This document shows positions 1 to 52,831 of a stretch of 64,000 nucleotides of DNA, one piece after another. Position numbers and translations under genes: made by a program. How positions within the stretch are numbered: the stretch's first letter is position 1; each line of letters starts with the position of its first letter. Under the pieces are notes generated by a model. That model was not told the DNA's origin and made no database searches. It worked only from the letters and a program-made list of their open reading frames with translations. Source of the DNA: Orobanche coerulescens (Eukaryota; Streptophyta; Magnoliopsida; Lamiales; Orobanchaceae); assembly GCA_033398695.1 (NCBI GenBank), contig CM065817.1:69118001-69182000 (forward strand), read 5' to 3'.

Positions 1-716
1 CCCGTTGTTTACTCTCGCGTAAAACGACGACCCTGAATAGATTAATAATTTAGAAATATCGCATTACCGATGATGGGAAGCCTAGTAACCGGGGGTATTC
101 ACATGAGCTGTTGTCTACTTTCGCGTAAAACGACAACCTTGACATGCGGGACTTGCTATTCGAGTTTTTTCTCCGCTGTAGAGGGGGACTTAGTAACTAG
201 AAGCATCCATGTGCCCCATGAGTGTCTTTTACGTCAAACGGTTCCCCGATACATGAGAATGGAAATCCACCCTAGGATCATCCCGATGAAATATCCCGAG
301 AGCCGAAACCTAGTGGTTAACTCGAATCATATTATTGATCATACATAGGGGAATGCTGTCCGAGGAGTAAGTTTAATAATGAAACTCTTGAAATTTTTGC
401 CACTAGACTGTGGGACTGGGCGAATTGGCTTGGTTAATCTAACCCTTCATATGGATGGTGGGTTAAATTCACGCTTGTTAATCTTTGAGCTTGATTTTCT
501 TCTTGAAAGATTGATTAGGACTGAAATTGGTTACTTTGTGGAATCAGTGTCCGGGACGTGACTCACTATTACGACACTTGTATTATTCTTTGAGATTTTC
601 AGGATAGTATTGATTAAGTTTTGCACTATGGATTTGCATGATTACTCACGATACATTTTGTTTAAAATTATAATTTTTTGCTTGAGGACAAGCAAAGGCT
701 CAAGTTTGGGGGTATT
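1..716 (+). mobile_element. 3' interior of an Athila/Tat-like LTR element
   Basis: This stretch is the non-coding 3' interior of an LTR element whose 5' part lies outside the window. It ends in a polypurine tract (about 700-716, core AAGTTTGGGGG) directly before an LTR starting with TG. That tract form is typical of the Athila/Tat branches of Ty3/gypsy. A diverged repeat of about 108 bp is seen near the start: the motif TCGCGTAAAACGAC occurs near 15 and again near 122. The short open frames at 70-348 and 379-561 show no recognisable domain and I do not regard them as genes. Confidence 0.7.
677..696 (+). promoter_or_regulatory. Hairpin 5' of the polypurine tract (AGGA loop)
   Basis: The arms TTTGCTTG (677-684) and CAAGCAAA (689-696) are perfectly complementary and enclose the loop AGGA. 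The polypurine tract begins four bases later. Hairpins with the same layout but different stems precede the tracts of other elements in this window (8112, 9291, 11638, 53666, 59703). Confidence 0.75.
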
Positions 717-1970
717 TGTTAGGCGTATTTTTATGCGCTTTTATATCATTATTTTATATCCATCTTGAGCCTAAATCAGCATAAATGAGCTTTTAATGCA
801 TTATTTTTATATGTTTTGCAGGAAATCGGAGTCCGGAAGCCAAAACGATGAAAAACGGGCGAAAATAGCAGTTTTTGGTCATGAGCCGGCACACAACAAG
901 TGAACCGCGGCACACGAAGACAACCAGCAAATAATGTACCCACTGTACTGTGTGCCGCGGCACACACAAAGTGAGCCGCGGCACAGAAAGCGCAAAAGAC
1001 GCCCTGGTTGTGTGTGGGAGAATTGGGCCGCGGCTTTTGGGCCGCTTGGGCTTTTGGGGTGTTGCGCCGAGAGGAGGTTGACGTGAGGAAAGGATTTGAT
1101 TTGCCTGGGAGAAAAAAAAAACTACTGGGGATTGAAAGAAAAGAAACAATATAAAAAAGGGCACAGCAATTGGGGAGCAGGTGAGTTTTCGGAAAAGGTA
1201 GAAATAAGATTGTTTTTCGGCGGAAGAAATAAAAGAAAACAAGGTGTAGATTTGTGGGGGCAACGACAAGACCACGGATCCCTACGGTTTTTCTGCATCT
1301 TAGTTTTTAGATTTATTCGAGTAGGATTTTGATTGTAGCCAATTTCATGACGGTTTGATTATTTATTATTATTTTGATTTACTTGTTATTCTATTGAATT
1401 GGATTCTTCTTACTGTTCTTAATGCTTTTTAATTGTCTGGCCAACAGTTAATTTGTTTTGAATGTCTTTATGGATTCGGGAGATGAAATTTAGGCATAGT
1501 TCTTGTTAGACGAATCATAATTTTCGTGAGATAGAAATATACTCATGCGAATTGTGAAGCCTGTTATTGTGGGAATTCTTGAACTATTTTAGCTATTAAT
1601 TATCTGATTCGAATAGGGATATATCGAGTTAGTAATTCGTAGTATTTTCTATCGACCTTGGGAAAGGCTTTAGAATAATTTAGGAATTCCTGACTTACAA
1701 TCAATTGAATAACAGTGAATTGAATCGAATAAATATCATTCCCGATTGTTTGAGGTGAAAATCAATATCCTACCCCTTATTAGTATTATTATTATTATTA
1801 GTAGTACTATTATTTATTTTCTGCAATTAGTTTAGATATAAACTCTATTTAATTGTTCTTTAAATAAAATTGTGAGTTGACTAAATTTTGGTACTTAGTG
1901 AAATCAGTCCTCGAGGGAACGATACTTTACTTATCTCTTTATTACTTGTTGACACCGTGCACTTGCGGCA
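717..1970 (+). mobile_element. 3' LTR of Athila/Tat-like element
   Basis: The LTR begins TGTTAGGCG right after the polypurine tract and most likely ends at ...CACTTGCGGCA, giving TG...CA termini and about 1254 bp. Its end resembles the end of the LTR at 4354-5991 (both have GTGCACTTGCG near the terminus). It contains a cluster of the palindrome GTGCCGCGGCAC with variants (about 888-985) and a TATA-like box at 1150-1157. The target duplication cannot be checked because the 5' LTR is outside the window. Confidence 0.65.
888..1157 (+). promoter_or_regulatory. Palindrome cluster and TATA-like box in LTR
   Basis: Several copies of a GTGCCGCGGCAC-type self-complementary motif lie between 888 and 985. 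A TATAAAAA box at 1150-1157 follows about 165 bp downstream. Together they look like a U3 promoter with a repeated upstream element; activity is inferred. Confidence 0.45.
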
Positions 1971-1973
1971 TAT

Positions 1974-2843
1974 TGTGAGGGATTTCCCCACAACATTGTT
2001 AATCCCGGGCTTGAATGCTCTTGCGAGATGTTATTAATAAGTATACTGTTGAGTACAAATATTAATGTTAGAATATATTACAATGAGTGTAAAGACTTCT
2101 AGTTACCTAAGTTGTAGAGTGTGTAGATTGCCGGAAGAACCAGATATGAAGCTCTGTGAGTTCTTGCTATTAATGTTCAGTGTATGAGAATGTATCTCTC
2201 TCTGTATATCTTTCACTGTATTCACAATGATGTGATTCTCCCTGCTGCCGTGTTATGAGCCTCCTATTTATAGGAGACGAGGTTGCTGGGACCTCTCCGG
2301 CGATCACAAGCGACTGCCGTTTTCTATATTATAATAAGATGGCCGATTGTCCCGTCACGTGGGGCTGTTCCCTTAAAGTCTGGGGCTGCTGCTGGCGGCC
2401 AGCTGTGTGAGCCAATGGGAAGCCTGCACGCGTCCTGAGTCGCTGTCCGGGGAGGACCCACTTTGTACCTTTCGGCGGCCCTGTCGGTAGGTGAGGTAGG
2501 TGACAAGCTGGGGTCAAAGGTCTTATCTGTCGGCGCCTTTTGTGGATCTGCACGTGGGTCTCCGTCCAAGATTCGGTCTTCGATGACTTTGACGGATGTT
2601 GGATTCATACGTGGCACGAGACGATCGTCTCTGGTTGGACATCATAGACGATTGCCAGATACCAAAAGATGATCACCGGATACCAAAAGACGATCGCCGG
2701 ATACCAAAAGACGATCGCCGGATATCAAAAGACGATCGCCGTGGGTGCCGACTGCTGGGTGTTTGCCCAGAGTATGTCTTCTATGGTTGGCCCTCAGATC
2801 ATTATGCCGATCACCATCGAGGCGTATTAATTGCCGCACAACA
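1974..2843 (-). mobile_element. Antisense solo LTR or LTR remnant, Tat-like
   Basis: This matches the antisense LTRs at 33042 and 36459 in order and wording: the GGGCTTGAATGCTCT block, the ACAATGAGTGTAAA block, a TATTTATAGGAGACGAGG promoter-like block, the GCACGCGTCC block and a GACGATCGCC-rich end. It ends at ...CCGCACAACA, equivalent to the CGACACAACA end of the intact copies. It is 0.87 kb against 1152 bp for the intact LTRs. No clean 5-bp duplication flanks it, so solo-LTR origin is likely but unproven. Confidence 0.6.
2655..2740. repeat. 21-bp tandem repeat, 4 units
   Basis: Four head-to-tail units of about 21 bp, consensus GGATACCAAAAGACGATCGCC, lie inside the antisense LTR remnant. 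The two middle units are identical. Each unit carries the self-complementary core CGATCG. Confidence 0.85.
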
Positions 2844-2845
2844 TA

Positions 2846-3205
2846 CCTATAATGTGTGCTCCCACTAACCATTAGTGTTCGACAGGCACTCTCCATGTCA
2901 AAGAACACATCATACAAGTCTTCACATAAACTTAACGCCCAGTCAAGTTCATCGACTTGCGAACGATTAAGTCTGTGAGCTATAAACCTTTCCATTGCCG
3001 ACCCCCTTATCTAATAAGGAGTGGAATGTTTTGCTCTCAAATACACGGACTAGTTTCTTTATATATATTTACAAGTTAGGAATGCCAGTAACTACCAGTA
3101 AATAAAGAAGCATCCATTGCCTTATATAAATAATTTACATAATTACAAGTACAATGCCCTCACTCAATCATCCTCTGAGTGGCATTCGAGGGCATACTCC
3201 CAACA
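2846..3205 (-). mobile_element. Antisense copia LTR fragment
   Basis: Read on the minus strand, this starts TGTTGGGAGTATGCCCTCG and continues through blocks shared with the copia LTRs at 29940 and 43172 (GAATGCCACTCAG, TACTTGTAATTATG, GCAAGTC near ACTTAATGCCC). It joins gypsy B RNase H sequence at 3206 without a visible target duplication. The left edge is approximate. It is far shorter than the 1.8-kb copia LTR below, so it is a truncated or different family member. Confidence 0.55.
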
Positions 3206-4353
3206 ACTGAAGCCATACAAAATGAATTACCCGACGCATGACTTAGAGCTAGCCGAAGTAGTACACGCCCTCAATATTTGGAGGCATTATCTTTATAGAG
3301 TTACTTGTAAGATTTTCACGGACCATAAGAGTTTGAAATATATCTTCACCCAGAGGGAATTAAACATGAGGCAGAGGCGCTGGTTGGAGTTAATCAAAGA
3401 CTACGACATGGAAATCTTATACCACCCCCGAAAGGATAATATCGTAGCTGATGCACTCAGTCGAAAAACTAGATAGGAAGTAATGTTATCCAGCTTAACG
3501 GTTCAACCCGAACTACAGCAAGCCATCAGGAGGAGTGGTATTGAAGTATGGGTACAACACAGTTATGGATAATTGTGCTCGATCAATATACACTCGTCCT
3601 TATTAAATGAGATACGTCTAGCACAAATGGAAGATCCCGAACTACATGCGATCAGTGCGGGAATCGAAAAGGGAAATGTTTCCAACTACAAGATCTAGGG
3701 GGACTTGGTGAGATTCAAGAATAGGATCTATATTCCACTGAATATTGAGCTGAAGCAAACTATACTGAGAGAAGCACACTCTGCTCCCTACTCTATTCAC
3801 CCCGGAGCAAGTAAAATGTACAAGGATCTGCGATAGATTTTCTGGTGGAAAAATATGAAACAGGAGGTGGCTAGATTCGTTGCTCGATGTATGACGTGCC
3901 AACAAGTTAAATTAGAACACCGCAGACCATCTGGAATCATGCAACCCTTACCCATTACGGAGTGGAAATGGGAAAGCATATCAATTAATTTTGTCACTAA
4001 GTTACCAACGGCGGTGGGAGGAAAGGACACAATTTGGGTTATCGTTGATCGATTAACGAAATCAGCGCATTTTATTCCAATTTAGGAAATGACCGGAACA
4101 GAGCAGTTAGCCACTATTTTCATCTGGGAAGTCGTGAGATTGGACGGCGTTCCCTCATCCATCATTTCGGATAGGGACACCAGGTATGTGTCCAGTTTTT
4201 GGAAAGCCATCCAAAAAGCTATGGGGACCTAGTTGCATTTTAGCACAGCCTATCACCCTAGGACGGATGGACAGACAAAGCATACGATACAAACCCTGGA
4301 AGATATGTTGAGGGCATGTGTGCTCGATTGGGGAAAAGATTGGGTTAAGCATC
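3206..4353 (+). pseudogene. Gypsy B pol fragment: RNase H and integrase
   Basis: This is the degenerate pol interior of a Ty3/gypsy chromovirus. RNase H is seen from 3206 ([31 protein letters not shown], ending VADALSRK near 3470). An integrase zinc domain (about 3770-3910: HPGASKMYKDLR, then CMTCQQVK) and the integrase core (3930-4353: WVIVDRLTKSAHF, SDRD, TDGQ) follow. In-frame stops occur at 3474, near 3570, near 3835 and at 4083. The first catalytic Asp position reads INFVT and the Glu position reads [10 protein letters not shown], so both acidic residues are replaced. The frame is cut at 4354 by the LOG-carrying element and continues at 10972. The reverse transcriptase upstream is missing. 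Confidence 0.9.
4349..4353. repeat. Target site duplication GCATC (left)
   Basis: GCATC precedes the 5' LTR and is repeated exactly at 10967-10971 after the 3' LTR. Removing the element and one copy rejoins the gypsy B integrase sequence, which confirms the insertion boundary. Confidence 0.95.
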
Positions 4354-5991
4354 TGATAAGTGTCAGTTTTATACACTTATCCATGGTTTGTATCGATAAA
4401 TTTCACCCATAATTGAGCTAGTCTACTCGTTTTTGCTTTTAATTAATTACTTTTTAATAATTTTATTTTTATCGGATGATGTAAATCTAGTCTTAATCGG
4501 ATTGAATTACTGATTTACTCAAGAAATAACATATTTATAAAATATTCTCTTTGTTGAGTTTGTATGTATTCATGTTATAGGGATTTCCGAGACGAGTTCG
4601 GCAGTCTTTCCGGATTCAAAATCAGAGTCATATATCAAAAGTTATCATCCGAAGAAGATTTGGGGCGAAAACGCAAAAGTCAGAAATTCTGGGCTAAAAA
4701 TGAAGTCTGAAACTCCTTACGGGCGTAACATCTAAAAGTTACGGGCGTAACTCACAAAGCAACTAATGTGAAAAAATCCGTAGCCATGTTACGGCCGTAA
4801 CTCCTCAATGTTACGGCCTTAAGTCCTCATAGTTACGGCCGTAACTCCTCAAAGTTACGGCCGTAACTCTTGACAGATTTTTGATCATTGTCTAATTTTT
4901 TATACTTTTGATCTATTATTGAGGGGATGGCTGGCATTGATCCGATCTAATGTAATAATGATGGAGTTTTGGAGCTATTAGATGACTTTAGGTGTATAAA
5001 TAGACCCCTTAGATCCATCATCCATCATCATTCATCTTATAATTTTTCCACTTTTTGTAATATTTTCTTTTTATGTGAAGAACACACTTGTGTTCTTGAG
5101 TGATTTGCGTAATAGTGGTATAACATATGTTGTTCAGAGAGTTTATTGCTTCTTTCTCCTTTATCTACTAAGGGAGTTAGGATCAATTCTTTCTCTTTTT
5201 CAACTAATAATGACCATTAAAGCTTGTATTATGTTTATTAAACCCTTCATGGGCTAAGTTGCTTAAGTTGGGATTATAAACAAGGTTAGTCATGTTATTT
5301 AAGTTTGTATAAAGATCTATTGTGAATTACTTATTATTTTGTGTGATTTTCATTGTTTTAACAATCTTTATTTATTTGGCCAATAAATGACGATATTTAT
5401 GGTCTTCATATGTTTCGAAAGAAAATATGTTTGATTAGATCAAATGATCTTCACTCTAAGTTGTTCTAGGGGATAGAAATATACCTCTAGACCTTAGATG
5501 ATTCTTTGAGTTATTTTCATAAATCCTAATGCTATGTATTGAAGCCAATCAACATAGAAATATAGTGGATTGATTCAATATATAAGGGACGTTTTATAGT
5601 TCGAAAGAGAAATCGTTTTTTTAAGGAAAATCGAATCTACACAACATAATAAGTAATTTCATGTTATGATCTCCTATACATCTTCTATAACTAATGATGA
5701 ACTAAGTTTGTAATCCCAACTATTTCATTTTATCTTTTATAAATCTATTATTAGTGCAATCTTTTATTTCCTTGAATATTAGAACTATTATTGCATTTTC
5801 TTTGTAATTGTCAAACTAAACTCTTTAATTGTGTGTTTCACTCATCTTAGTACCTATAAAAATAGACTAATAGTGTATAATTCAAATTATAACCAAACTT
5901 CCTCGTGGGATCGATAAACCGGACTCAAAAAGTCCACTTACTACTTGATACGATATCGTGCACTTGCGATAGTTACACTAAAGACGTGTCA
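4354..5991 (+). repeat. 5' LTR of LOG-carrying element
   Basis: It begins TGATAAGTGTCAG and ends AAGACGTGTCA. The LTR carries a cluster of the palindrome GTTAC-GGCC-GTAAC with the variant GGGC (about 4716-4868) and a TATAAATA box at 4995-5002. Its end has the GATATCGTGCACTTGCG block seen in Athila-like LTRs. Confidence 0.95.
4716..5002 (+). promoter_or_regulatory. GTTACGGCCGTAAC cluster and TATA box in 5' LTR
   Basis: Six copies of the 13-14 bp self-complementary motif GTTACGGSCGTAAC, some with one mismatch, lie between 4716 and 4868. A TATAAATA box at 4995-5002 follows. The same layout recurs in the 3' LTR (about 9694-9848 and 9973-9980), where several palindrome copies carry mutations. This is probably the U3 promoter and its repeated upstream element. 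Confidence 0.6.
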
Positions 5992-5997
5992 AGTTTT

Positions 5998-6016
5998 TGG
6001 CACCGTTGCCGGGGAA
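5998..6016 (+). other. Primer binding site, tRNA-Asp type
   Basis: TGGCACCGTTGCCGGGGAA lies six bases behind the 5' LTR. It is complementary, with one mismatch, to the 3' end of tRNA-Asp, the primer family reported for Athila-type elements. Confidence 0.8.
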
Positions 6017-6224
6017 GTATAAGTATTATATTTGAAATCTTACATTGTGAACTATTGTTATAGGATACATTTTCTCGACGTTGTAACTTAGTACTCAATT
6101 GTGTTTGTCCGGTCAAGTGGCGGATAACGGTACTCCGTGACTATTAAAGTCGGATTTTTCAGTTTCCCACAACAACTGATATTTGTATATATTTTCTCTT
6201 TTATTTTTATTTTATTTTTTTATC

Positions 6225-6770
6225 ATGGAAGAAATTTTGAATAATATTGAAAAAAGATTTTCCTTTCTGAGCAAAAAAGTAATTTTAAAAATCTACAAAG
6301 CAAGAATTGAAAGGATGAGGTTGCTTATGAATAAGAGCATACCTTTTGATATTAGATTCATAATTGAAGCCAAAGTGAGAATAGCAGGTGAATTCACAGA
6401 AATACCGACTAGATTTTTACCAGGGCTTGGAAAAAGTTCATATGCCAAGAAACGGCGAGCAAAAATGATAGTCGTTTGCTATAAATGTGCTAGATGGAAC
6501 TGTAATTTAAAATGTCGATCTTTAGGAATTCCATCTACAAACAGAGAAGATAAAATTCAATTCATTAAGGATGGTCTGAATAAAGAGAATTTAGATGATA
6601 TCGAAATTTCTCTTGACACGCATCCTAGTGGACTCGTACATTATAGAATTCGATGTTTGTGGAATAAATTCAAACCAGAATATGAACAACATCTTGGGAA
6701 TTTGACGTTAAAAGACCCTGTTTGCCAATTTGTAAGAAAATTGGATGGGAAGCTTCTCCCCGACTCATAG
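6225..6770 (+). CDS. Unknown 181-residue protein in LTR element
   Basis: An open frame of 181 codons is intact inside the LOG-carrying element, starting at the Met of MEEILNNIEKRF (an upstream in-frame Met at 6183 would add only a hydrophobic run of poor coding look). The protein is basic and lysine/arginine-rich. Near its middle is the cysteine cluster CYKCARWNCNLKC, which could bind a metal. There is no CCHC knuckle and no gag, protease or polymerase motif that I recognise. I cannot name its family. It may be a private accessory protein of this element family or a captured host exon. The ORF being open while LTRs differ by a few percent hints at selection or luck; the LOG copy downstream is broken. 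Confidence 0.55.
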   Translation: MEEILNNIEKRFSFLSKKVILKIYKARIERMRLLMNKSIPFDIRFIIEAKVRIAGEFTEIPTRFLPGLGKSSYAKKRRAKMIVVCYKCARWNCNLKCRSLGIPSTNREDKIQFIKDGLNKENLDDIEISLDTHPSGLVHYRIRCLWNKFKPEYEQHLGNLTLKDPVCQFVRKLDGKLLPDS

Positions 6771-7081
6771 AAGGCGTTTAGGCCGTTTCTGAACGTAAAA
6801 TCAGAGGAAGATGTGAGCCACAATTACAACTACTGTACATACACGTGAGTATCTTTAATTTTTGTCGTATGGTGAGATTTTCTAAATAAAAAAGGAGTGA
6901 TATGCAATAAATGCATTCATTATTCTATTGAGTAGTTGAAGCGCAATCAACGCAATCACAAACTTGTTAAATAATTTTTACCTTTTTTTTCTTCTATAAC
7001 TAAACATTGTGCTTGTTTCTTTTATTCATCCCTCAAACTTGTACTTTTCTCTTTTTCTCTCTAAAAATTTTCTTTTCAAAA

Positions 7082-7707
7082 ATGGAGTCATCATCTTCAA
7101 CAAAAAAATTTAGCACAGTCTGCATTTTTGGTGGAGCTAGTTATGGAAAAGAGGCATGCTTTCTTGATCAAGCCCACAACTTGGGTCGTACCTTAGGAGA
7201 AAAATGCATTCATGTAGTTTACGGAGGAGGAAGTCTAGGATTAATGGGACGAGTGCCTTCGCCTATATGGAAGGAGTAAGAGTGTTGGGAATAATTCCAA
7301 AACCTCTGGCTGAAAGTAAAATCACCGGGGCAACTATTGGAGATGAGTTTAGATCTGTAAATATGCAAGATCGCATAACTCACATGATAAATAATTCTGG
7401 CACCTTTATCACCCTTCCCGGTGGTTTTAGCACTCTTGAGGGACTTTTTCATGTGGTTACCAGAGCCCAGCTAAATGTTCATCAAAAACCAATAGGTCTG
7501 CTTAATATCAATGGTTTCTTTGATGGTTTACTATCTTTCATCGACTACTCTGCTGAAAAAGGTTTTATTTCCGAATGTGCTAAACGAATCATAGTCGTTG
7601 CAACAACACCAGAAGAACTAATCAAAAAACTCATTGAATTTGTTCCTCAACCAGATCCAGCTCTAGCTAAAATTGTCTGGATGGAAGATTTTACCGTGAG
7701 AAAATGA
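7082..7707 (+). pseudogene. LOG-like: Captured LOG-type cytokinin-activating enzyme gene, frameshifted
   Basis: The two overlapping reading frames together span about 208 codons, the usual LOG size. LOG enzymes (cytokinin riboside 5'-monophosphate phosphoribohydrolases) release active cytokinin bases in the cytosol. Matches run in order: VCIFGGASYGKE (Rossmann start), VVYGGGSLGLMG, VLGIIPKPL, ITGATIGDEF, NMQDRITHM, FITLPGGFSTLEG, RAQLNVHQKPIGLLNINGFF, FIDYSAEKGFI, ATTPEELIKKL and FVP. Start chosen at the Met at 7082, matching LOG N-termini. A single-base frame break lies near 7245, right after LMG. The signature PGGxGTxxE reads PGGFSTLEG, so Gly and the catalytic Glu are replaced, and the Arg-Lys of MxxRK reads Arg-Ile. 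There are no introns, whereas plant LOG genes are split into several exons, so it probably entered through an RNA copy. It lies between ORF1 and the 3' LTR in the same sense. Confidence 0.88.
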
Positions 7708-8111
7708 AAAGTGGATTCATTCCTCTACCTTTGATAACCCATATCGGACCTCTTGTATTTTTACTTTCTGTTGTGTATAAAAATCGTGCTAAATGATGGC
7801 AGCTTAAGGAGTTTCTTCTTGATCTCTTGACGCGCATCTATTCGCGATTTATGTATTGTTATTTTATTGCTGTAATTTTTATTTGTTCTTTTTATAAAAG
7901 CATTGATGGCACCGTAAGGCGACTCTTCGGACTTTCTTGAAGCGCATCTTAAAAATTGTGTTATACTTCCGAGTATATTTTATTTTCTTATGTTGTGTGC
8001 CTCGTATATTCATTCTCTTGCAGATTCTAAAAGGCGTTAGCTCAAGCATCAACTTTCATAACAGGGAGTATTCTGTTTTTCTCCTTGCTTTTTATTTTAT
8101 TATTTTTTTTT

Positions 8112-8149
8112 TAAAACTGAGGACAGTTTTATTTTCAAGTTTGGGGGTG
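8112..8149 (+). other. Internal hairpin plus polypurine-like tract
   Basis: The arms TAAAACTG (8112-8119) and CAGTTTTA (8124-8131) enclose the loop AGGA. TTCAAGTTTGGGGGTG follows at 8134-8149, identical over 16 bp to the terminal polypurine tract at 9313-9328. It may be a second (central) plus-strand priming site or the relic of an older element end. Confidence 0.65.
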
Positions 8150-8664
8150 GTTTGTTTAATTATTTTGGTGTGTTGGTATTCTGGTGTGTTTTGATTATTT
8201 TGGTTTTTCGCCTTAAATTTTTTTTAGTATATATATATATAGTATTCTGATTTGTGAGATTTCTAGATCTGGCCATAACACCAATAAGTTAGCTATATAC
8301 AAACTTCTAAAATCGTTTTAACCGGTAAAAAAATTATATATTCCAAAATTTTTGAGCCTTAATCTCTCTTTCCAAGCCTTGTAGTTATCATATAAAATCG
8401 AGTCATTCGTTACCTTGAGAAAAGAAGAATTAGTCGGTTGATGAAAAATAGAACTTAAATTTACTTAATTTATAGAGTTTTTGATTTTTCATGCTTAACC
8501 AATAAATGATTTTTTGCAAAAATTCTATTCCCTAAAAAAGTCATTGGTGAAAGGAGTCTAGTTGAAAAGGTGTTGAGCAGCAACAGCTGCCTAATTTTGG
8601 GGGTCCTGAAATTTTGAAAAAAATAAAGGACTAACTATTGTTGGTGCGTAGCTGCCGTCTCACA

Positions 8665-8868
8665 CGAAATGGAAATTATGTTGGTGAAAAGAGCTACATG
8701 TTAGCAAATAACGGTGTGAAAGCTATCACCTAAAAAATGGAAATTGTGTCGGTGAAAAGAGCTACACGTTAGCAAATAACGGTATGAAAGCTATCACCTA
8801 AAAAAAGATAGAAAATATGTTGGTAAAAAGAGCTACACGTTAGCAAATAACGGTGTGAAAGCTATCAC
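8665..8868. repeat. 68-bp tandem repeat, 3 units
   Basis: Three units of about 68 bp run head to tail. Each holds AAGAGCTACACGTTAGCAAA followed by AACGGTGTGAAAGCTATCAC with a few changes. They lie in the non-coding 3' interior of the LOG-carrying element. Confidence 0.85.
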
Positions 8869-9290
8869 TAAGGGATGTAGTTTATGAGCAGATTTGAATT
8901 AATTAGCGGCTGAATTTCAATACACTCAATTTCGTGAAAAATCATAATATTTGATGACGCCAATGAAATTCTTCTTCATATTGAGTCGAAAAATAAGCGA
9001 GTGATCGAGAGCAACCATTAAAGGGAGTCGTGTGTATCACGAGTGGGAAAGAAATAATCAACCTTTTGGGGGGAAAACCTTGCATTTTGGAATTACAAAA
9101 ATAAAACCGTGTTTTAACTTCAAAATCATTAGTAGATTTATTTTGAATCTTAATTCATTTATATCTACTGTATAAAGCTGGTTGTTGTGTATTAATGGTA
9201 TTTTGATCTCCGTTTCTCTTTTTATATGATTATTTTTCTTAATTTATGTGTGTATTAGTATTTTTTTTTTTGAGTGTGATTAATAAAGAG

Positions 9291-9328
9291 TCTTGCTCGG
9301 GACTAGCAAGAATTCAAGTTTGGGGGTG
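9291..9328 (+). promoter_or_regulatory. Hairpin and polypurine tract at 3' LTR
   Basis: The arms TCTTGCT (9291-9297) and AGCAAGA (9305-9311) enclose the loop CGGGACT. The tract TTCAAGTTTGGGGGTG (9313-9328) abuts the LTR. It is the plus-strand primer site of the element. Confidence 0.8.
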
Positions 9329-10966
9329 TGATAAGTGTCAGTTTTATACACTTATCTATGGTTTGTATCGATAAATTTCACCCATAATTGAGCTAGTCTA
9401 CTCGTTTTTGCTTTTAATTAATTAGTTTTTAATAATTTTATTTTTATCGGATGATGATGTAAATCTAGTCATAATCGGATTGAATTACTGATTTACTCAA
9501 GAAATAACATGTTTATAAAATATTCTCTTTGTTGAGTTTTTATGTATTCATATTGTAGGGCTTTCCGAGACGAGTTCGGCAGTCTTTCCGGATTCAAAAT
9601 CAGAGTTATATATCAAAAGTTATCATCCGAAGAAGATTTGGGGCGAAAACGCAAAAGTCAGAAATTCTGGGCTAAAAATGAAGTCTGAAACTCCTTACGG
9701 GCGTAACATCTAAAAGTTATGGGCGTAACTCACAAAGCAACTAATGTGCAAAAAGCCGTAGCCATGTTACGGCCGTAACTCCTCAATGTTACGGTCGTAA
9801 GTCCTCATAGTTACGACCGCAACTCCTCAAAGTTACGGCTGTAACTCTTGACAGATTTTTGATCATTGTCTATTTTTTTATACTTTTGGTCTATTATTGA
9901 CGGGATGGCTGGCATTGATCCGATCTAATGTAATAATGATGGAGTTTTGGAGCTATTAGATGACTTTAGGTGTATAAATTGACCCCTTAGATCCATCATC
10001 CATCATCATTCATCTTATAATTTTTCCACTTTTTGTAATATTTTTTTTTTGTGAAGAACACACTTGTGTTCTTGAGTGATTTGTGTAATAGTGGTATAGC
10101 ATATGTTGTTCAGAGAGTTTATTGCTTCTTTCTCCTTTATCTACTAAGGGAGTTAGGATCAATTTTTCTCTTTTTCAACTAATAATGACCACTAAAGCTT
10201 GTATTATGTTTATTAAACCGTTCATGGGCTAAGTTACTTAAGTTGGGATTATAAACAAGGTTAGTCATGTTATTTAAGTTTGTATAAAGATCTATTGTGA
10301 ATTACTTATTATTGTGTGTGATTTTCATTGTTTTAACAATCTTTATTTATTTGGCCAATAAATGACGATATTTATGGTCTTCATATATTTCGAAAGAAAA
10401 TATGTTTGATTAGATCAAATGATCTTCATTCTAAGTTGTTCTAGGGGATAGAAATATACCTCTAGACCTTAGATGATTCTTTGAGTTATTTTCATAAATC
10501 CTAATGTTATGTATTGAAGCCAATCAACATAGAAATATAGTGGATTGATTCAATATATAAGGGACATTTTATAGTTCGAAAGAGAAACCGTTTTTTTAAG
10601 TAAAATCGAATCTACACAACATAATAAGTAATTTCATCTTATGATATCCTATACATCTTCTATAACTAATGATGAACTAAGTTTGTAATCCCAACTATTT
10701 CATTTTATCTTTTATAAATCTATTATTAGTGCAATCTTTCATTTCCTTGAATATTAGGACTATTATTGCATTTTCTTTGCAATTGTCAAACCAAACTCTT
10801 TAATTGTGTGTTTCACTCATCTTAGTATCTATAAAAATAGACTAATAGTTTATAATTCAAATTATAACCAAACTTCCTCGTGGGATCGATAAACCGGACT
10901 CAAAAAGTCCACTTACTACTTGATACGATATCGTGCACTTGCGATAGTTACACTAAAGACGTGTCA
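9329..10966 (+). repeat. 3' LTR of LOG-carrying element
   Basis: It is 1638 bp, the same length as the 5' LTR, with scattered substitutions and compensating small indels (for example one extra GAT near 9453). It ends GACGTGTCA and is followed by the duplicated GCATC at 10967-10971. Confidence 0.95.
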
Positions 10967-10971
10967 GCATC

Positions 10972-11640
10972 TCGGGTTAGTAGAGTTTTCGTACAACAAC
11001 AGCTAGCACGTGAGCATAGGCATGGCACCATTTCAGGCTCTGTACGGACGAAGATGCAAGTCCCCGTTATGTTGAGATGATGCTTATGACACCGTGGCTA
11101 TCGAGTTAGATCTGATCAAAGAATCCATTAAGAAGATCTCGGTTGTTCGAAAACATATGTTAGAAGCGCAAAGCCGGCAGAAATCATATGCCGAGAACCG
11201 GCAGCGACCGTTGAAATTTACGGTCGGGGATCATGTTTGGGTCAAAGTATCGCCTATGCGAGGTGTCCGGCGTTTCGACCACTTGGGAAAGTATCCCAAG
11301 GTTCATAGGCCCGTTCGAGATATTGGACCGAGTTGGAAAACTTGCGTATTGATTAGCCCTGCCACCGCATTTAGATGGAGTGCATAATGTCTTTCACGTC
11401 TCCCAGTTAAGGAAGTATGTCTATGATCCGAGTCACAAACTCAATTTTGAAGAAGTGGAAATTTCTAATGATGCTACCTTTAGAGAAGTGCCGATCGCTA
11501 TCTTGGATCGGCGTATGAAAATGTTATGAAATAAAGTCATACCCCTTGTGAAAGTTCAGTGGTCGCACCATGGCATGGAAGAAGCAACTTGGGAGACCGA
11601 GTCGAGCATGAGGGAAAATTATCCCGAGTTGTTTTCTTAG
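10972..11640 (+). pseudogene. Gypsy B pol C-terminus with chromodomain
   Basis: This continues the gypsy B integrase behind the LOG element. It shows MAPFQALYGRRCKSPLC near 11030, then SRQKSYAENRQRPLKF and VGDHVWVKVSPMRGVRRF (11170-11270). The C-terminal chromodomain (about 11480-11640) reads ILDRR, VIPLVKVQWSHHGMEEATWE and ends at a TAG at 11638-11640. Frame breaks and stops (near 11017, 11076 and 11528) make it non-functional. The chromodomain places the element in the chromovirus clade of Ty3/gypsy; in that clade it steers integration towards modified chromatin. Confidence 0.88.
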
Positions 11641-11673: not shown

Positions 11674-14040
11674 TGTAATACCATGGTATTTCATGCTTTA
11701 ATTACTGTGTATTTCATAAATTAAAATGCAATTTCTATCATTTGCGATATTGTCTTCTTGTATTATATGGTTTCATTAAAGTGCTATTGTGATATAATTG
11801 TGTGATGTGAATGGAACGGAGGTGATGTGCCTTGACGCCGTTAGAAAATTGTCGGTGCAAATATGATGGTGGCCAACGTCTTGTTCCCCGAGGAATTGTT
11901 GATGAGTGAAAAGGTAGTCACCCTGAGTTGGTTAAAATGTGATAATTGGCTAAGGGACTGAGTGACTAACGTATGCTTGATGACATGCATAACGTACGTT
12001 AGTTTAGAAGTATTACGTACGTTAACCCAACTTGGTTACGTACATAAAGGGAGAGTTGGTCTTCCGACCAGAATCTTTTCTTTTGACACGGATGGGGTAC
12101 TTTCAGTAGGCTAGAAGACAAACAAGTCAACTGCTCGTAACGTACGTTATCTGTCGAACTTAACGTACGCTGTGGCAGGGAAGCTTACGTACGTTAATAA
12201 CCCTACTATGTAATGAGTAGGGACATTCCAGGCAGTAGCCTCTGGTCGACCATTACGTACGTTATATAGGTAACACTACGTACGTAATGATCTTTACGTA
12301 TGTTAACCCATGAGCATTAACGTACGTTAAACACAATCGTGTGTTATAAATCTACACCTTCTCCTTCATTTCCCATGACCATTATACTTGTGCAACCTCT
12401 TGAAGAACCTTTCCAAGCCCCCTTAGACGATTTATAGCCTTCCAAACACTTGTATTGACATCAAGGAAGGGATTACTCAAGCTCCGGAGGAGGTTATCTA
12501 GGTCGATCGATCCATTCTTCATTCCTCCTCATTGGTCTTTGTTGGTTCGTCATTATTCCTCATTGTTCTTCCTCTATTAAGGTAAGTATATCAATCCTTG
12601 AGGTTATCTCTCCGATATTATTGTTATGCCTATTGGATTACGGGTATTTGGGTAGGTTTGTTAACTCCTGTAGACAATCTAATCAGATGAATTTGTAGTA
12701 ATCAAAACTATCGTTGTAAGTATATTTCATTCCCGAGCCTTAATTCATGTATCTTGTTGTAATAATCATATGCGAAATTCATATTTCAATCAACCTTGTA
12801 AACATGAACTTAAAGAATCAATTGTAGGGGAAATCGTGCAAAGAATCCATCCACCATATGCTAAACTCATTGAAATCCACCTTGATTATATAATTATCTA
12901 ATGTTAATTAACTAGATGGAGTCAAGCTTGGTAGTATTACCATCATAAAGAATCGACCATTAAAATTGTTGTGTGAAACGAAAACCCACCGAATAGAGAA
13001 CTCGGAGTAGAGAATTTAATTAGTAGGTTATGGAATTTAATTATGCTATACTCAATTTTTATCAACCGGAATAATGTGGGGGATAATCTTGTTGAGCAAA
13101 TTGTTATAACAATCGTTAATCAAAGGAGTAAACCATGTAATAACGCGTATTGCTATTGAGTTTAGAAATATGATACTAGTTTTGCGAAATCGAACTAAGT
13201 TAAGAATTCGATTAGGTAAGGAAATGGGAAACTAGTTTCATTCATATGAAATGTTAATCGAGGATTATGTGATTAGGTTGAACTCGATCAGACATGGAAG
13301 TTCAAATTATCGTAAGGCACTTACCGTCGGATTTAAGGCAAGTAAATCCTTGCTCGAGAAGTGTTAATTTTATTTACAATATTCATAATACATGAATGTG
13401 CCGTTGTGTGATGAATGTCAAACGCTTGTCTTTCTCTAGAAATTGTGTTACGAATGGGCCGATGTGTTGGGGATGAAACCTGAATGGTACCCGTGTGGAA
13501 ATGTGTTGAGGGATAAGACCTAAGATGGCACCCATGTTCCAGTGTATTTCTGTGTAGATACTTCTGTGACCCTTGGCTGCGACCTTGGGGTTTATGTGTA
13601 AAAGAGAAAGACAACATCGGCTATACTATGAATTATCATCTATATGTTATGTGGTACGGTGTTAATAAATCATGTATTTCATTGCGAAACACTGTTATTG
13701 ATTATCACTCTCTGACCTTTATTTGTCTGGCATGATTCGCCGTGCCAGTTAAATTTGTTGAATATGTGCAGGACATTCCCGAGGGTTCCGGTCAGGCTTG
13801 AACGACGTTGGAATAAAGTTCTGTTACCGCATGTTTAATTTGATTAACGAAAACTCTGTTTATGTAATAATCGTGTTTTGAATTATGTTTCTTCAAAGAC
13901 ATTCCGTTTCATGCTATGTAACCGTAGACTCACCCGTTTTATAATACCTTATTTAAAATATCAATTTCTTAAAATAGCCTTGTGGGTCCCACACGGGATT
14001 CACGGCACTGTAACGCCCGGGAAATTTTGGGGGTGTTACA
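11674..14040 (+). mobile_element. 3' LTR of gypsy B
   Basis: The LTR begins TGTAATACCATGG behind the polypurine tract and ends TTTTGGGGGTGTTACA, about 2367 bp. It carries a cluster of ACGTACGT-type palindromes (11969-12332), a TATAAATC box at 12345-12352 and a block near 13495-13610 that is also found, in the same sense, in the antisense giant LTRs at 44540-57472. The two are thus related families. The tandem duplication starting at 13127 includes its last 914 bp. Confidence 0.85.
11969..12352 (+). promoter_or_regulatory. TAACGTACGTTA cluster and TATA box, gypsy B LTR
   Basis: About a dozen copies of TTACGTACGTTA-like palindromes, some with one change, are spread over 360 bp. A TATAAATC box follows at 12345-12352, 16 bp behind the last copy. 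The core TACGTA is the A-box, a known plant bZIP binding core. This looks like a U3 enhancer; activity is inferred. Confidence 0.6.
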
Positions 14041-15464
14041 TAGTCGGTGCAAGTACTTGATAACAGGAATATGTATAACGTTCAATAAAAGAAATATCGA
14101 TGACTGATTATATTAGTATAGCAAGAAGAATGATATTCTCACCCGGTACCAGTGCCTCAACAGTATTGTGAAAACGATATCGTTGTGCAAAAATGCATCA
14201 ACAACATCACAATCCAAAAGCATAAGCACTACCATCTCACTCCATTATTCCAGAATAATACGTATATCACATTTCAAAAACGACATGGGCTATACCGATA
14301 TGAGGTTCGCACCCCATCGTAACCTAGAGCCCTTGTCAGGGAAGTCCCTGATTGTATAACCCGTCGAGTTATATGTGGTTCGCACCCCAACGTACCTCAA
14401 ATCCCTCGTCAGGGCAGTCCCTACTTAACCCGTCGAGTGATACGAGGTCCGCACCCCATCATATCCCAGAGCCCTCGTCAGGGCAGTCCCCGGCTTTACC
14501 CGACCACAAAACACAGTTTCACATTATTGGTATAACTTCAAAAATATCATATTCCAATCATATCTTTCACATTTCACAGCACGTTGTCACATAACTTTGA
14601 CGACGCAAGTCTCAAATCATTATCCAAAACTTTCAACAACTTTGCTTTTCAATCTCATTTGAAATAACTTTTCGAGGCATCCTCGATAAATCATTTATAA
14701 AATTATACCATTCTATAAAACAACAATCAAGTTCAGTCATCCAGTATTTGCTGAAAATCTTTCTCAAGTAATCTCAAAAACATTTTCGAAATCCTTTTTG
14801 AAAATATTAAATCGTTAATTCGATTGGAAAATCATTTCAGGATATCAATGTATAATTTCTGAATCAGATTATGAAAAAAATCATACGGAAATAATGGTTT
14901 ATACATATTTAATTGAAATTTATACATAAAGCGCAATCAAATACTTGCCTGGCAACTTTACAGACAAGATCGTTTCGAACGGTTTGTAATTGGGATTCAA
15001 AACTCTTAAATCTCCAGCATGCAACGAGGAATTCATGATAACCAGTAGTAGGGCTATTCATTCTAACCGAAATAACATCGAAAACCTTAATTGAATCCCT
15101 TAGGGGACTTTTATCGGACACTTCGCGGACGGTATCCGGTTACGATGATTCGAACAAAAGATTTAATTTTCGTTCCATTGGGACCGATAAGAACAGGCCC
15201 AGGATACTCGATATATAATCTTTTACGAATTCCAAAAACCAACTCATCAAGAATATAGGAAAATAAGTTTAGGGTTCAGGGCCAAATTACCTCCAATCCG
15301 GCGAAAACCGCTGAAATCGGCTGAAGAGGACTTGCTAATTTGATTCTCGGCCATTGATTACGCATTTAAACAGCTCGAAATTGTGCCGAAATGGAACTTC
15401 AAGGTGAGGGCCGAGGCTATCTGTTCCACCATGCTGAAATGCCATTAAAATGGCTGAAAAACGG
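14041..15464 (-). mobile_element. Antisense gypsy-like LTR, first part (copied at 16379-17802)
   Basis: This 1.4-kb AT-rich, non-coding stretch between the gypsy B LTR and the duplication joint is most simply the distal part of the antisense LTR whose start is at 18616. It holds three 70-bp repeats (about 14298-14507). No gene is seen; the short frames at 14168, 14352 and 14909 lie in repeats. The left edge of the LTR is not certain. Confidence 0.5.
14298..14507. repeat. 70-bp tandem repeat, 3 units
   Basis: Three units spaced 70 bp apart share GGTTCGCACCCC, GTCAGGGCAGTCCC and AACCCGTCGAG. The same array is present at 16636-16845 because of the 2338-bp duplication. Confidence 0.85.
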
Positions 15465-17802
15465 AGTAAACCATGTAATAACGCGTATTGCTATTGAGTT
15501 TAGAAATATGATACTAGTTTTGCGAAATCGAACTAAGTTAAGAATTCGATTAGGTAAGGAAATGGGAAACTAGTTTCATTCATATGAAATGTTAATCGAG
15601 GATTATGTGATTAGGTTGAACTCGATCAGACATGGAAGTTCAAATTATCGTAAGGCACTTACCGTCGGATTTAAGGCAAGTAAATCCTTGCTCGAGAAGT
15701 GTTAATTTTATTTACAATATTCATAATACATGAATGTGCCGTTGTGTGATGAATGTCAAACGCTTGTCTTTCTCTAGAAATTGTGTTACGAATGGGCCGA
15801 TGTGTTGGGGATGAAACCTGAATGGTACCCGTGTGGAAATGTGTTGAGGGATAAGACCTAAGATGGCACCCATGTTCCAGTGTATTTCTGTGTAGATACT
15901 TCTGTGACCCTTGGCTGCGACCTTGGGGTTTATGTGTAAAAGAGAAAGACAACATCGGCTATACTATGAATTATCATCTATATGTTATGTGGTACGGTGT
16001 TAATAAATCATGTATTTCATTGCGAAACACTGTTATTGATTATCACTCTCTGACCTTTATTTGTCTGGCATGATTCGCCGTGCCAGTTAAATTTGTTGAA
16101 TATGTGCAGGACATTCCCGAGGGTTCCGGTCAGGCTTGAACGACGTTGGAATAAAGTTCTGTTACCGCATGTTTAATTTGATTAACGAAAACTCTGTTTA
16201 TGTAATAATCGTGTTTTGAATTATGTTTCTTCAAAGACATTCCGTTTCATGCTATGTAACCGTAGACTCACCCGTTTTATAATACCTTATTTAAAATATC
16301 AATTTCTTAAAATAGCCTTGTGGGTCCCACACGGGATTCACGGCACTGTAACGCCCGGGAAATTTTGGGGGTGTTACATAGTCGGTGCAAGTACTTGATA
16401 ACAGGAATATGTATAACGTTCAATAAAAGAAATATCGATGACTGATTATATTAGTATAGCAAGAAGAATGATATTCTCACCCGGTACCAGTGCCTCAACA
16501 GTATTGTGAAAACGATATCGTTGTGCAAAAATGCATCAACAACATCACAATCCAAAAGCATAAGCACTACCATCTCACTCCATTATTCCAGAATAATACG
16601 TATATCACATTTCAAAAACGACATGGGCTATACCGATATGAGGTTCGCACCCCATCGTAACCTAGAGCCCTTGTCAGGGAAGTCCCTGATTGTATAACCC
16701 GTCGAGTTATATGTGGTTCGCACCCCAACGTACCTCAAATCCCTCGTCAGGGCAGTCCCTACTTAACCCGTCGAGTGATACGAGGTCCGCACCCCATCAT
16801 ATCCCAGAGCCCTCGTCAGGGCAGTCCCCGGCTTTACCCGACCACAAAACACAGTTTCACATTATTGGTATAACTTCAAAAATATCATATTCCAATCATA
16901 TCTTTCACATTTCACAGCACGTTGTCACATAACTTTGACGACGCAAGTCTCAAATCATTATCCAAAACTTTCAACAACTTTGCTTTTCAATCTCATTTGA
17001 AATAACTTTTCGAGGCATCCTCGATAAATCATTTATAAAATTATACCATTCTATAAAACAACAATCAAGTTCAGTCATCCAGTATTTGCTGAAAATCTTT
17101 CTCAAGTAATCTCAAAAACATTTTCGAAATCCTTTTTGAAAATATTAAATCGTTAATTCGATTGGAAAATCATTTCAGGATATCAATGTATAATTTCTGA
17201 ATCAGATTATGAAAAAAATCATACGGAAATAATGGTTTATACATATTTAATTGAAATTTATACATAAAGCGCAATCAAATACTTGCCTGGCAACTTTACA
17301 GACAAGATCGTTTCGAACGGTTTGTAATTGGGATTCAAAACTCTTAAATCTCCAGCATGCAACGAGGAATTCATGATAACCAGTAGTAGGGCTATTCATT
17401 CTAACCGAAATAACATCGAAAACCTTAATTGAATCCCTTAGGGGACTTTTATCGGACACTTCGCGGACGGTATCCGGTTACGATGATTCGAACAAAAGAT
17501 TTAATTTTCGTTCCATTGGGACCGATAAGAACAGGCCCAGGATACTCGATATATAATCTTTTACGAATTCCAAAAACCAACTCATCAAGAATATAGGAAA
17601 ATAAGTTTAGGGTTCAGGGCCAAATTACCTCCAATCCGGCGAAAACCGCTGAAATCGGCTGAAGAGGACTTGCTAATTTGATTCTCGGCCATTGATTACG
17701 CATTTAAACAGCTCGAAATTGTGCCGAAATGGAACTTCAAGGTGAGGGCCGAGGCTATCTGTTCCACCATGCTGAAATGCCATTAAAATGGCTGAAAAAC
17801 GG

Positions 17803-18616
17803 ATTTATACAAGAAGGAGCTTCTGGGTCGGTTTTAAGGGTGATATGATAATTTCGCCATGACCGACTGACATGCTTGTATTATTTTGACCATAACTTGT
17901 TAGTTCGTGCCTGAACAGCTCTCCATTCATTCCACTGGAAAGCTAACTCAATACAACACTATAGAATTTTAGAATTTTTGGGATTTTCTACAATATATGG
18001 TGACTGATCAAAGTCGATCCTTGCGCACAGCATCCTCAAGAAAGGTCCATGTTTATTTTTATTGCCTTGTGGTACTCTATTTATATTATGAATTGTCTAA
18101 TAATATATTACTCAAAACAAGAATTGTGAATCTTGAGGCTGATCAAATAATCCAGTCACAATTCGATCAGCGAGTCTAGAACGTTCCTCGAAACATTGAG
18201 AAACAACAAAAAGGTCATTGAGACGTTGAAGTGAATTCTTATGGTCTCATATTCAACTTTAAAGTATTCTAACAAGTACGATTGAATCTAACATTATTAA
18301 GATGACCCTTACTGATATCGCATGTCGAGTTCTCATCACTAGTCAGAATTATAGAGCAAAATATATGTTTAAGAAAAGTAATACATATGGGATCATGAGT
18401 CCTGCAACGAGGATAGTGCCAATCAATCACTAATCTAAAGATAACACGGAGGACGTCATATAATCGATACATGTCGATATTCAGAATCCCGAAAGTCGAA
18501 CGATAAGTTAAGAATGAAGAATGGCAACAGTTACAAGTTCAACAAAACGACAAAAGAATTCATAAAACGGGTCGAAAATTAGAAGTTATTTAGGGGTAAA
18601 AATCTGGGGTCTCACA
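17803..18616 (-). mobile_element. Antisense gypsy-like LTR, start part
   Basis: On the minus strand the LTR starts TGTGAGACCCCAGATTTTTA at 18616, next to a polypurine tract (plus-strand CCCTCTCCCCTT, 18617-18630). The block at 18508-18616 recurs at 21236-21343, the remnant of the partner LTR. The short frames at 17997 and 18269 carry no recognisable domain. Confidence 0.7.
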
Positions 18617-44539: not shown

Positions 44540-45419
44540 TGTAACACCCCCAAAACCAACCGGGGAAATTACAGCGCCATGGTCTCCGCGGCGGAACCCA
44601 CAAGGCTAAAAATCATTTTCGCAAATGTTTCAAACACGCCAAAGAGGCAAAGACGGTAATATTTTAAATACTCAAATATTTTTCAAAGCATAGTTCCCAA
44701 ATACCGTCATAAAATACCATTTAAAAGTACAATGCAAGGATACCAAAAGGTCATTTTGAAAGTGTACACGAGCTGGTAAAATACCGAAAGCCATTAAAAG
44801 ATAAACACACAGCGGATATAACATAGTAGGAAATATATTTGCAGCGGAATCATAACAATCAGAAAAGAATACTCGTCCCCAAAACCATGCCATAGCCAGT
44901 ATCACCGGGAAGATCATCCCTTCACGACCGCTACTAGCTCGATCTCCGAGTACCTAAAAAATAAAGCCACGATGGGGTCAGCCACAATACTCAACAATGA
45001 TAACGATAAAATCAACATAAACAATTACATATCAATGTAATTACTAGGTAAGAATATTTCCAGTGTAATCTTACCGTAGTAACCTTACCAATTCGTGGTA
45101 ACTAATATAAAATCAACCCTTACCTCAAATCACACCTCGCATTCTCAAGTGACGAAAGAGTTCAAAAATAACCATCTGTACTGTATTCAAAACGATACCA
45201 AGATTCTCAAACATAAATATATCTCCAATATGAAATAACTTGACCATGTCCAATTCTGTTCGCAGGATCGCACAATCGAATCCCAATTCCGGTAAATCCG
45301 ATTATGCATGATACATTTGTAGATCAACTGCCCTCAAACGATGACAAGTCCCGGATATCGATACAAGGTATGAATGCTCACACAATCAATAATAATAAAC
45401 AACCAATGCATCAAAAAGA

Positions 45420-45866
45420 GAATATCATTGACATGATAACTCTACACAAGATCGACAAAGGACCAATCACGAACGAGAATATTGTCGATGTTGTAAACTC
45501 CAACAAGATCGATAAAGATCAACAACGACCGAGAATACCAATGACAAGGTATACTCCAAACAAGATCAATGGAGGATCAATAACGAATGAGAATACCAAC
45601 GATATGGTAAGCTCCAACGAGATCAATAAGGATCAATAACGAACGAGATTACCAATGATATAGTGAACTTCAACGAGATTAATAAGAATAAATAACGAAC
45701 GGGATTACCAACGATATAGTGAACTCCAACGAGATCAATAAGAATCAATGACAAACGAGGATACCAACGATATAGTGAACTCCAACGAGATCAATAAGAA
45801 TCAATAGCGAACGAGAATACCAACGATATGGTAAACTTCAACAAGATCAATAAAGAACCATATGGC
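45420..45866. repeat. About 57-bp tandem array, 7-8 units
   Basis: Units of about 56-57 bp with the pattern CTCCAACGAGATCAATAAG ... AACGAACGAGAATACCAACG ... are repeated head to tail. Equivalent arrays lie in the other LTR copies at about 50155-50600 and 54917-55362. Confidence 0.85.
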
Positions 45867-48084: not shown

Positions 48085-48545
48085 ATATATATATAACTTC
48101 AACCATTACATACGCTAAGTAATCAACCTAATGTACGTAATCTCCTTTACGTACGTTAACTGACCTTGTTAACGTACGTAACACTATTCCAGGGGCTACT
48201 GCCTCAATTCGTGGCATGCATTACGTACGTAATTTCCTTACCGTAGCGTACGTAATGTAGTTGTTGACTTGCTACAGTGCTATACTTGTTTACGTACGTA
48301 CTGGGCTGACCTTAACGTACGTAAAGCTCGATGCTCACCTGTCCACATCCGCGCCGAAAGCTGCCGACACCGGGCCCACCTACCGACTACAGCTCGAACA
48401 TGTTCGATTCTCTTCATAACATACGTTATGTGCTCAACCTAACGTACGTTAAGCTCGCTTGGTTACGTACGTAAGCTCCTCTGCTTAGCGTACGCTATTT
48501 TTGTACCTTTACGTACCTAAGCCCCTATGCTTAACGTATGTAATG
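48085..48545 (-). promoter_or_regulatory. ACGTACGT cluster with TATA run, giant LTR copy 1
   Basis: More than ten TTACGTACGTAA/TAACGTACGTTA-like palindromes and variants lie between 48115 and 48545. On the minus strand a TATATATAT run (about 48085-48096) follows the cluster, giving the same promoter layout as in the gypsy A and B LTRs. The equivalents in the other copies are at about 52800-53285 and 56655-57105. Confidence 0.55.
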
Positions 48546-48898
48546 GCTTTTATACTTAGCCATTTCTGCTTTTGTATCCCGTCTCAATATACCGAACACG
48601 TACACACGACATACTGAAACATATACTCGTTCTGATAACATTCTCATACGATACATCTGATGTACAATACCCTCAAATGCAATCGTCGACCAAGTACGAA
48701 AATTATACAAATACTCATACAGTATACCCGACATCGAAAGACATATCAAGCATGTAATATCCTAGAACTAAAAATAACCTCAATAGACATACTGGCACAA
48801 CTGTCACAGTTCCCAAAATTACTCATCTATACTGCATCGGTCCCACTCTGTACAGTACAACTCAGATAAAACAATGCGAAAAAATCATAGCAAAATTC

Positions 48899-52793: not shown

Positions 52794-52831
<38 letters not shown>

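Follow-up and report, generated by a model that had tools for sequence, protein, structure and literature searches.

A probable non-autonomous Athila-like retrotransposon of Orobanche coerulescens carries a virus-type CRP gene together with a LOG sequence

We analysed a 64-kb stretch of the Orobanche coerulescens genome (contig CM065817.1 of a 3.65-Gb assembly; hereafter the window, in whose numbering all positions are given), which contains a long terminal repeat (LTR) retrotransposon with two accessory genes: one for a virus-type cysteine-rich protein (CRP) and one of the plant LOG family of cytokinin-activating enzymes. We consider it probable that this is a gag-pol-deleted, non-autonomous Athila-like Ty3/gypsy element and that CRP and LOG form an accessory pair maintained by selection, with a function that we infer. 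The architecture of the family, the spread of its copies, the homology of its two proteins and the constraint between its two subfamilies are matters of observation.

Two LTRs, a target duplication, a primer site and a purine tract mark the window element as an LTR retrotransposon (Table 1). The original prediction, made from the sequence alone, had proposed an LTR pair with a perfect 5-bp target duplication and no gag-pol inside, and both proposals hold: the LTRs are 97.07% identical with GCATC on either side, and a Pfam scan of four internal open reading frames (ORFs) gave no gag or pol match. Rfam returned no match at gathering scores. The LTR divergence (Kimura two-parameter distance, K2P, 0.026) corresponds to about 1 million years at an LTR substitution rate of 1.3e-8. 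The primer site resembles the complement of the 3′ end of what we take to be tRNA-Asp.

The proposed LOG coding sequence is indeed in sense orientation, intronless and of the LOG family, matching Pfam Lysine_decarbox (PF03641) at 7.3e-30 (104.3 bits; cut-off 27) and the At2g37210 structure 2a33 at 1.5e-37. On TIGR00730 the window piece scores 94.2, just below the cut-off of 96.35, and the LOG protein P0016 scores 165.6; the equivalog NF058542 (cut-off 300) was reached by none of five LOG proteins scanned. An intact frame, however, is not kept in this copy: the first part ends after 65 codons, and a 4-base gap (about 7240–7250) relative to open copies shifts the remainder into a different frame. 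Moreover, the catalytic stretch reads PGGFSTLEG in place of the PGGxGTxxE motif, and the stop of the second part falls ahead of the usual C-terminal tail. The same gap occurs in two further window-type copies (L026 and L012), so that either the broken version was itself amplified or the spot is prone to slippage.

What the original account of the cargo missed is an open 181-codon CRP frame upstream of LOG. Its product passes the Pfam cut-off for Carla_C4 (PF01623; 1.1e-5, 25.7 bits against 20.9) and falls just below that for Viral_NABP (PF05515; 22.3 against 23), for which the CRP copy of another locus, L030, scores 26. A protein search returned 309 relatives, the best 120 of which come from Orobanche, Xanthoceras, Acer, Populus and other contigs. 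We aligned 85 of 121 CRP rows (the window and P0121–P0240); these proteins of 181–182 residues share 9 invariant columns and a conserved C-terminal half, and at E ≤ 0.01 Viral_NABP matches 80 of the 85 members (best 1.1e-8) and Carla_C4 79 (best 5.8e-8), with no other Pfam family matching more than 2. By these profile matches, CRP is homologous to nucleic-acid-binding zinc-finger proteins of carlaviruses and their RNA-virus relatives. According to the available text of PMC12172455, viral CRPs suppress silencing, and the CRP of chrysanthemum virus B acts as a transcription factor that induces hyperplasia.

The pair recurs in other copies of the family. A search of the assembly with the window element scored 34 of 15,700 candidates, and our copy counts exclude L001, L005, L007 and L008 (the window, or duplicates of L027–L029) as well as L009 (another plant). 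LOG lies within the same flanking family stretches in all 25 window-type copies, the window included, and 23 of them also hold a nearly whole CRP. The CRP frame has 181 codons from its ATG in 9 of these 23, one of which (L017) has a shifted stretch, and it runs beyond the usual stop in L012 and L023. Eight copies other than the window have two nearly full LTRs, at K2P distances of 0.023 to 0.037; exact 5-bp duplications of their own flank L017, L021, L022 and L024, and L010, L013, L016 and L023 gave no duplication match at their BLAST-defined ends. The remaining two of the 25 copies, L011 and L027, contain gag-protease frames fused to the final part of CRP, plus LOG, with gag and protease recognized by Pfam in L011.

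Fuller relatives in the same genome place the pair behind gag-pol. A genome search with P0016 scored 150 of 14,293 candidates (the larger figure comes from a coarse first pass and does not give the copy number), a set biased towards similar, open copies and with stops counted by eye; every scored match spans the protein, starting at residue 1–3 and ending at 217–218, and 124 of the 150 contain no stop. Where 8–9 kb upstream of LOG were read, three of four loci (L030, L031 and L033) have frames for gag, reverse transcriptase (RT) and integrase, followed by CRP and then LOG; L032 has other sequence there. Pfam matched gag (1.4e-19), RVT_1 (1.9e-16), RT_RNaseH (4e-35) and rve (1.9e-16) in L033, gag (2.4e-21) and rve (9.9e-13) in L030, where RVT_1 was under its cut-off, and integrase domains in L031. 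With gag-pol frames ahead of CRP and LOG at three of these four loci, the two appear to be accessory genes of long standing in an Athila-like lineage, and the window element appears to derive from it by loss of gag-pol. Among LOG loci read beyond the window-type copies, 11 of 12 have a CRP match upstream of LOG.

We envisage the fuller elements as gag-protease-RT-RNase H-integrase-CRP-LOG, in which CRP and LOG would occupy the post-pol slot of the Athila 'env-like' ORFs, LOG being a captured plant cytokinin-activating enzyme and CRP a member of a flexivirus-type family; deletion derivatives would be copied by gag-pol from elsewhere while their LOG decays. Sense extra ORFs 3′ of pol are present in L009, L030, L031 and L033, the window copy itself having no pol, and no chromodomain was reported in the scanned ORFs of these four loci, whose frames are broken and of which some pieces only were scanned. 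L009 (positions 1–3330), the sole match in a genome-contig scan with the CRP alignment, is a plant-like contig (DAIEQH010000041.1) filed under a Candidatus Nomurabacteria metagenome-assembled genome, probably as contamination of the bacterial record, and holds a Gypsy integrase and CRP. Its integrase is followed directly by CRP (61%), and the 1 kb left beyond CRP holds no LOG, an order suggesting that CRP-only elements may exist.

LOG sequences of this type extend to other eudicots. The window LOG protein returned 769 matches; among the best 120, the top ones belong to Orobanche hederae, O. minor and O. gracilis, single clusters of the matches listed have 328 and 244 members, and 52 of 75 listed rows of at least 205 residues retain the catalytic motif. 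The best LOGs of the window assembly are 82–86% identical to P0016, and adjacent locus tags pair CRP with LOG (OROMI_020768/020769 and OROMI_009435/009434). A search with a second LOG protein, P0103, scored 8000 candidates, 7892 of them significant, and we used the best 120, including the query, all non-Orobanche, from Xanthoceras, Diplodiscus, Reevesia, Populus, Paulownia and other contigs. Apart from the query, these are about 60–83% identical to it; PGGxGTxxE is present in 107 of the 120, and [LI]xLxL within the last 13 residues in 103, in 100 of which at least three K/R stand just before it. The tail in Orobanche ends mostly in FLSL.

In a midpoint-rooted tree of 56 rows (53 taken from 230 LOG proteins, and three solved chains), the 53 retrotransposon-type (retro-LOG) rows, from Lamiales, Malvaceae, Populus and Sapindales, are set apart from two Arabidopsis LOGs and one bacterial LOG (90/85, not a starred branch); those two are the only cellular plant LOGs included, so that a closer donor may exist, and some rows may lie outside elements. 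Orobanche joins Rehmannia and Paulownia first and Reevesia next. CRP and LOG rows occur on source records of equal size (8723, 4511 and 2128), a hint of linkage in other plants, although shorter records coincide too (734, 905, 1006, 1018 and 1386) and chance matches therefore occur. Three Populus proteins named 'probable ... LOGL10' (P0263, P0295 and P0339) group with the retro-LOG rows, and counts of plant LOG gene families may thus include retrotransposon ORFs.

Subsequently to be weighed is constraint, which we estimated as dN/dS on aligned codon columns, where shared history makes the pairs non-independent. Among window-type copies, CRP has a ratio of 0.30 (253 pairs). Twelve copies picked for an open LOG, a choice that lowers their LOG ratio, give 0.28 for LOG (66 pairs) and 0.32 for CRP (55 pairs, 11 copies). 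Between the two subfamilies the ratios are 0.25 for LOG (300 pairs) and 0.22 for CRP (253 pairs), and pN between the sets is 0.062 and 0.065, compared with a non-coding distance of 0.147 in the intergenic stretch between CRP and LOG. Together, these values suggest that the family holds both protein sequences under purifying selection.

Further findings bear on the reading of a selected, virus-type pair in an Athila-like element, several of them against it. Against it, the AlphaFold model of CRP is poor (pLDDT 67.7, pTM 0.30), and Foldseek comparison of this weak model with viral structures gave 19 matches, the best at E 0.44 and none at E ≤ 0.001. In favour of it, plant-virus proteins named as silencing suppressors or nucleic-acid binders, presumably from flexiviruses, account for 9 of the top 11 rows of this weak search and for 11 of the 19 overall. 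A tblastn scan of IMG/VR with the CRP alignment found no relative. Three matches of CRP in a PDB profile search (E 0.31–0.77) were dismissed as chance. CRP could instead be a plant or gag-derived zinc-finger protein, convergent with the viral family or its source, an account that we regard as rather doubtful: the fold match is weak, the viral Pfam matches lie largely within the basic region and cysteine cluster (residues 62–96 or 38–120), and transfer may have run in either direction, but two viral families recognize 79–80 of the 85 aligned members and any other family at most two.

Further points against this reading concern the pair itself. The stretches read of L030–L033 hold no window-LTR match and their frames are partly broken, so these loci are relatives rather than proven helpers of the window element. 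CRP is full length in just 3 of the 11 copies picked for open LOG, and one of the 12 other LOG loci (L035) has no CRP in the stretch read; individual copies thus do not always retain both genes. Just 5 of the 25 window-type copies have a full-length LOG, LOG dN/dS among the 25 is 0.52 (300 pairs), and the broken version recurs, all of which indicates that a copy does not depend on LOG in cis. The catalytic motif is present in only 35 of the 56 listed LOG rows from Orobanche with 205 residues or more. The Athila-like assignment, moreover, is based on layout and general features of the lineage rather than on an RT tree.

Broken LOG frames in 20 of 25 window-type copies, the gap common to three of them, the ratio of 0.52 and the 21 of 56 longer Orobanche rows without the motif would also be expected if LOG and CRP were passive passengers, captured once and copied along without benefit to the element. 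We judge this unlikely, given the low between-subfamily ratios of both genes, the 124 stop-free matches among 150 (a sample chosen by similarity) and the motif in 107 of the 120 rows of the P0103 list at about 60–83% identity.

The preferred account, an old accessory pair in a lineage that also produces deletion derivatives, differs from the original proposal that a LOG gene was captured through RNA and spread by a helper. The spread stands, as LOG is a standard component of a multicopy family and is not missing from its other members, and gag-pol from elsewhere is likely; capture by the short element does not, as gag-pol-CRP-LOG loci exist. That a non-autonomous element recently captured LOG from host mRNA, as a window element with LOG and without gag-pol might suggest, is very improbable: it is contradicted by gag-pol, CRP and LOG in order at loci of the same genome, by the second deletion type with gag-protease and LOG (L011, with Pfam support, and L027) and by retro-LOG rows of four plant groups apart from the Arabidopsis LOGs (90/85). 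That LOG alone entered one copy later, as an independent processed pseudogene, a view to which the intronless sequence might point, has virtually no standing: it is contradicted by the same family flanks in all 25 window-type copies and by CRP upstream of LOG at 11 of 12 other loci, although no search was aimed at a target duplication around LOG itself.

From homology we infer silencing suppression by CRP combined with cytokinin activation by LOG. CRP would bind nucleic acid and dampen silencing of the element, and LOG would raise active cytokinin in the same cells; dividing, meristem-like cells would be favoured, in which new insertions can be inherited. A wider reading, which we offer as a tentative possibility, is that of an old retrotransposon lineage with a two-gene host-manipulation cassette, in which an RNA-virus-type silencing suppressor or transcription factor would be joined to a cytokinin enzyme whose basic LxLxL (EAR-like) tail possibly leads it to nuclear co-repressors.

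Table 1 Features of the window element, in window coordinates
Feature	Position	Strand	Basis or remark
Target site duplication, left, GCATC	4349–4353	none	Read from sequence; same as 10967–10971
5′ LTR	4354–5991	+	Sequence self-comparison; TG...CA ends
Putative primer binding site	5998–6015	+	Read from sequence
Block before CRP, 32 bases	6111–6142	+	Almost identical in L009 (other plant), there between pol and CRP
CRP gene, 181 codons, open; virus-type cysteine-rich/nucleic-acid-binding protein	6225–6770	+	Pfam; 85-sequence alignment A1
Block after CRP stop, three predicted hairpins	6768–6835	+	Conservation with L009
LOG part 1, 65 codons of broken frame	7082–7279	+	ORF list, Pfam, copy comparison
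LOG part 2, other frame, 167-codon ORF; LOG similarity from about codon 20	7204–7707	+	ORF list, Pfam, structure match
Internal purine tract resembling the tract at the 3′ LTR	8137–8149	+	Read from sequence
Unit of ~70 bases, three head-to-tail copies, 3′ non-coding part	8650–8868	+	Self-comparison; relatives hold similar units
Polypurine tract	9316–9328	+	Read from sequence
3′ LTR	9329–10966	+	Sequence self-comparison; TG...CA ends
Target site duplication, right, GCATC	10967–10971	none	Read from sequence

The two conserved non-coding blocks around CRP may control expression of the downstream genes. Folding of the block before CRP is nothing unusual (z −1.24 in the window, 0.53 in L009), and the block after it has z values of −1.16 and −2.35, respectively. 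In the post-CRP hairpins 97.8% of 139 cells pair and two pairs are changed on both sides, both from L009; two such changes were reached in 21 of 500 shuffles. Because the hairpins rest on this one distant sequence, an RNA structure here is suggestive only.

As for the setting, the window element is probably nested in another retrotransposon, since by eye the flanks 4200–4353 and 10972–11100 seem to form a single, interrupted integrase-like frame of Gypsy type. Elsewhere in the window, 13122–17803 consists of 2.34-kb copies head-to-tail (13122–15465 and 15460–17803; 99.96% identical), either a recent tandem duplication or an assembly doubling. Large repeats occupy 44540–56626 (44540–51844 versus 49272–56626, 93%), with shorter tandem units near 45.4–45.9, 50.1–50.6 and 54.9–55.4 kb.

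Among known systems, the Steinbauerova 2011 abstract reportedly describes two Athila-like elements similar to LOGL4. The original prediction knew of no LTR family with LOG cargo; such cargo in Gypsy elements is already known, since PMC9289625, in its available text, records the LOG-protein domain YgdH in Gypsy consensus sequences of Citrus and Populus, in agreement with Steinbauerova et al. 2011. Those elements share the LOG-type extra domain with ours, and Populus is also among the LOG and CRP relatives found here, but the account, as far as that text goes, mentions no CRP, gene pairing or Orobanche (PMC9289625). Our searches of the open-licence PMC literature, supplements aside, found no report of a virus-type CRP or of a CRP-LOG pair in plant retrotransposons. 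The Athila lineage (Ty3/gypsy, non-chromovirus OTA) likewise has sense extra ORFs after pol, a purine tract and a tRNA-type primer site, whereas its extra ORFs, in the accessible portions of PMC6317226 and PMC11728184, are env-like or Athila ORF-1/Transposase_32 rather than CRP and LOG.

In carlavirus and other flexivirus CRPs (Carla_C4, Viral_NABP), a four-cysteine cluster likewise follows a basic stretch; the retrotransposon CRP differs in its 181–182 residues, its conserved C-terminal half and its encoding in an element. Cysteine spacing is longer in the viral proteins. With cellular LOGs (At2g37210, At5g11950) the retro-LOGs share the fold family and, in intact copies, the catalytic motif, but they are intronless, stand apart in the tree and, in the P0103 list, mostly carry an [LI]xLxL tail preceded by basic residues, a tail that to our knowledge cellular LOGs lack. 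Bs1 is an LTR element carrying a host gene, and is thus alike in having an accessory host gene in a plant LTR element and unlike in the gene concerned. Orchid Gypsy elements carry a 2-ODD (m6A demethylase) domain (PMC9289625, available text), another case of a plant LTR family keeping an accessory domain, though of a different gene and with no virus-type partner mentioned there.

In the available portions of PMC7264820 and PMC11728184, it is said to be largely unknown where the extra ORFs of plant LTR elements come from and what they do. Both extra ORFs described here have recognizable relatives, testable activities and signs of constraint; one mobile element here unites a hormone gene with a gene family of RNA viruses, and a single genome supplies at least 150 LOG matches for study. 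Retrotransposon ORFs may also lie behind some plant genes annotated as LOGL10 or hypothetical LOG, Populus and Orobanche being examples. If the cassette reading is true, the two genes would act in the manner of gall-forming pathogens, bringing cells into a permissive, dividing and poorly silenced state and promoting the inheritance of new copies; a family so abundant in broomrapes might also shift the parasite's own hormone balance.

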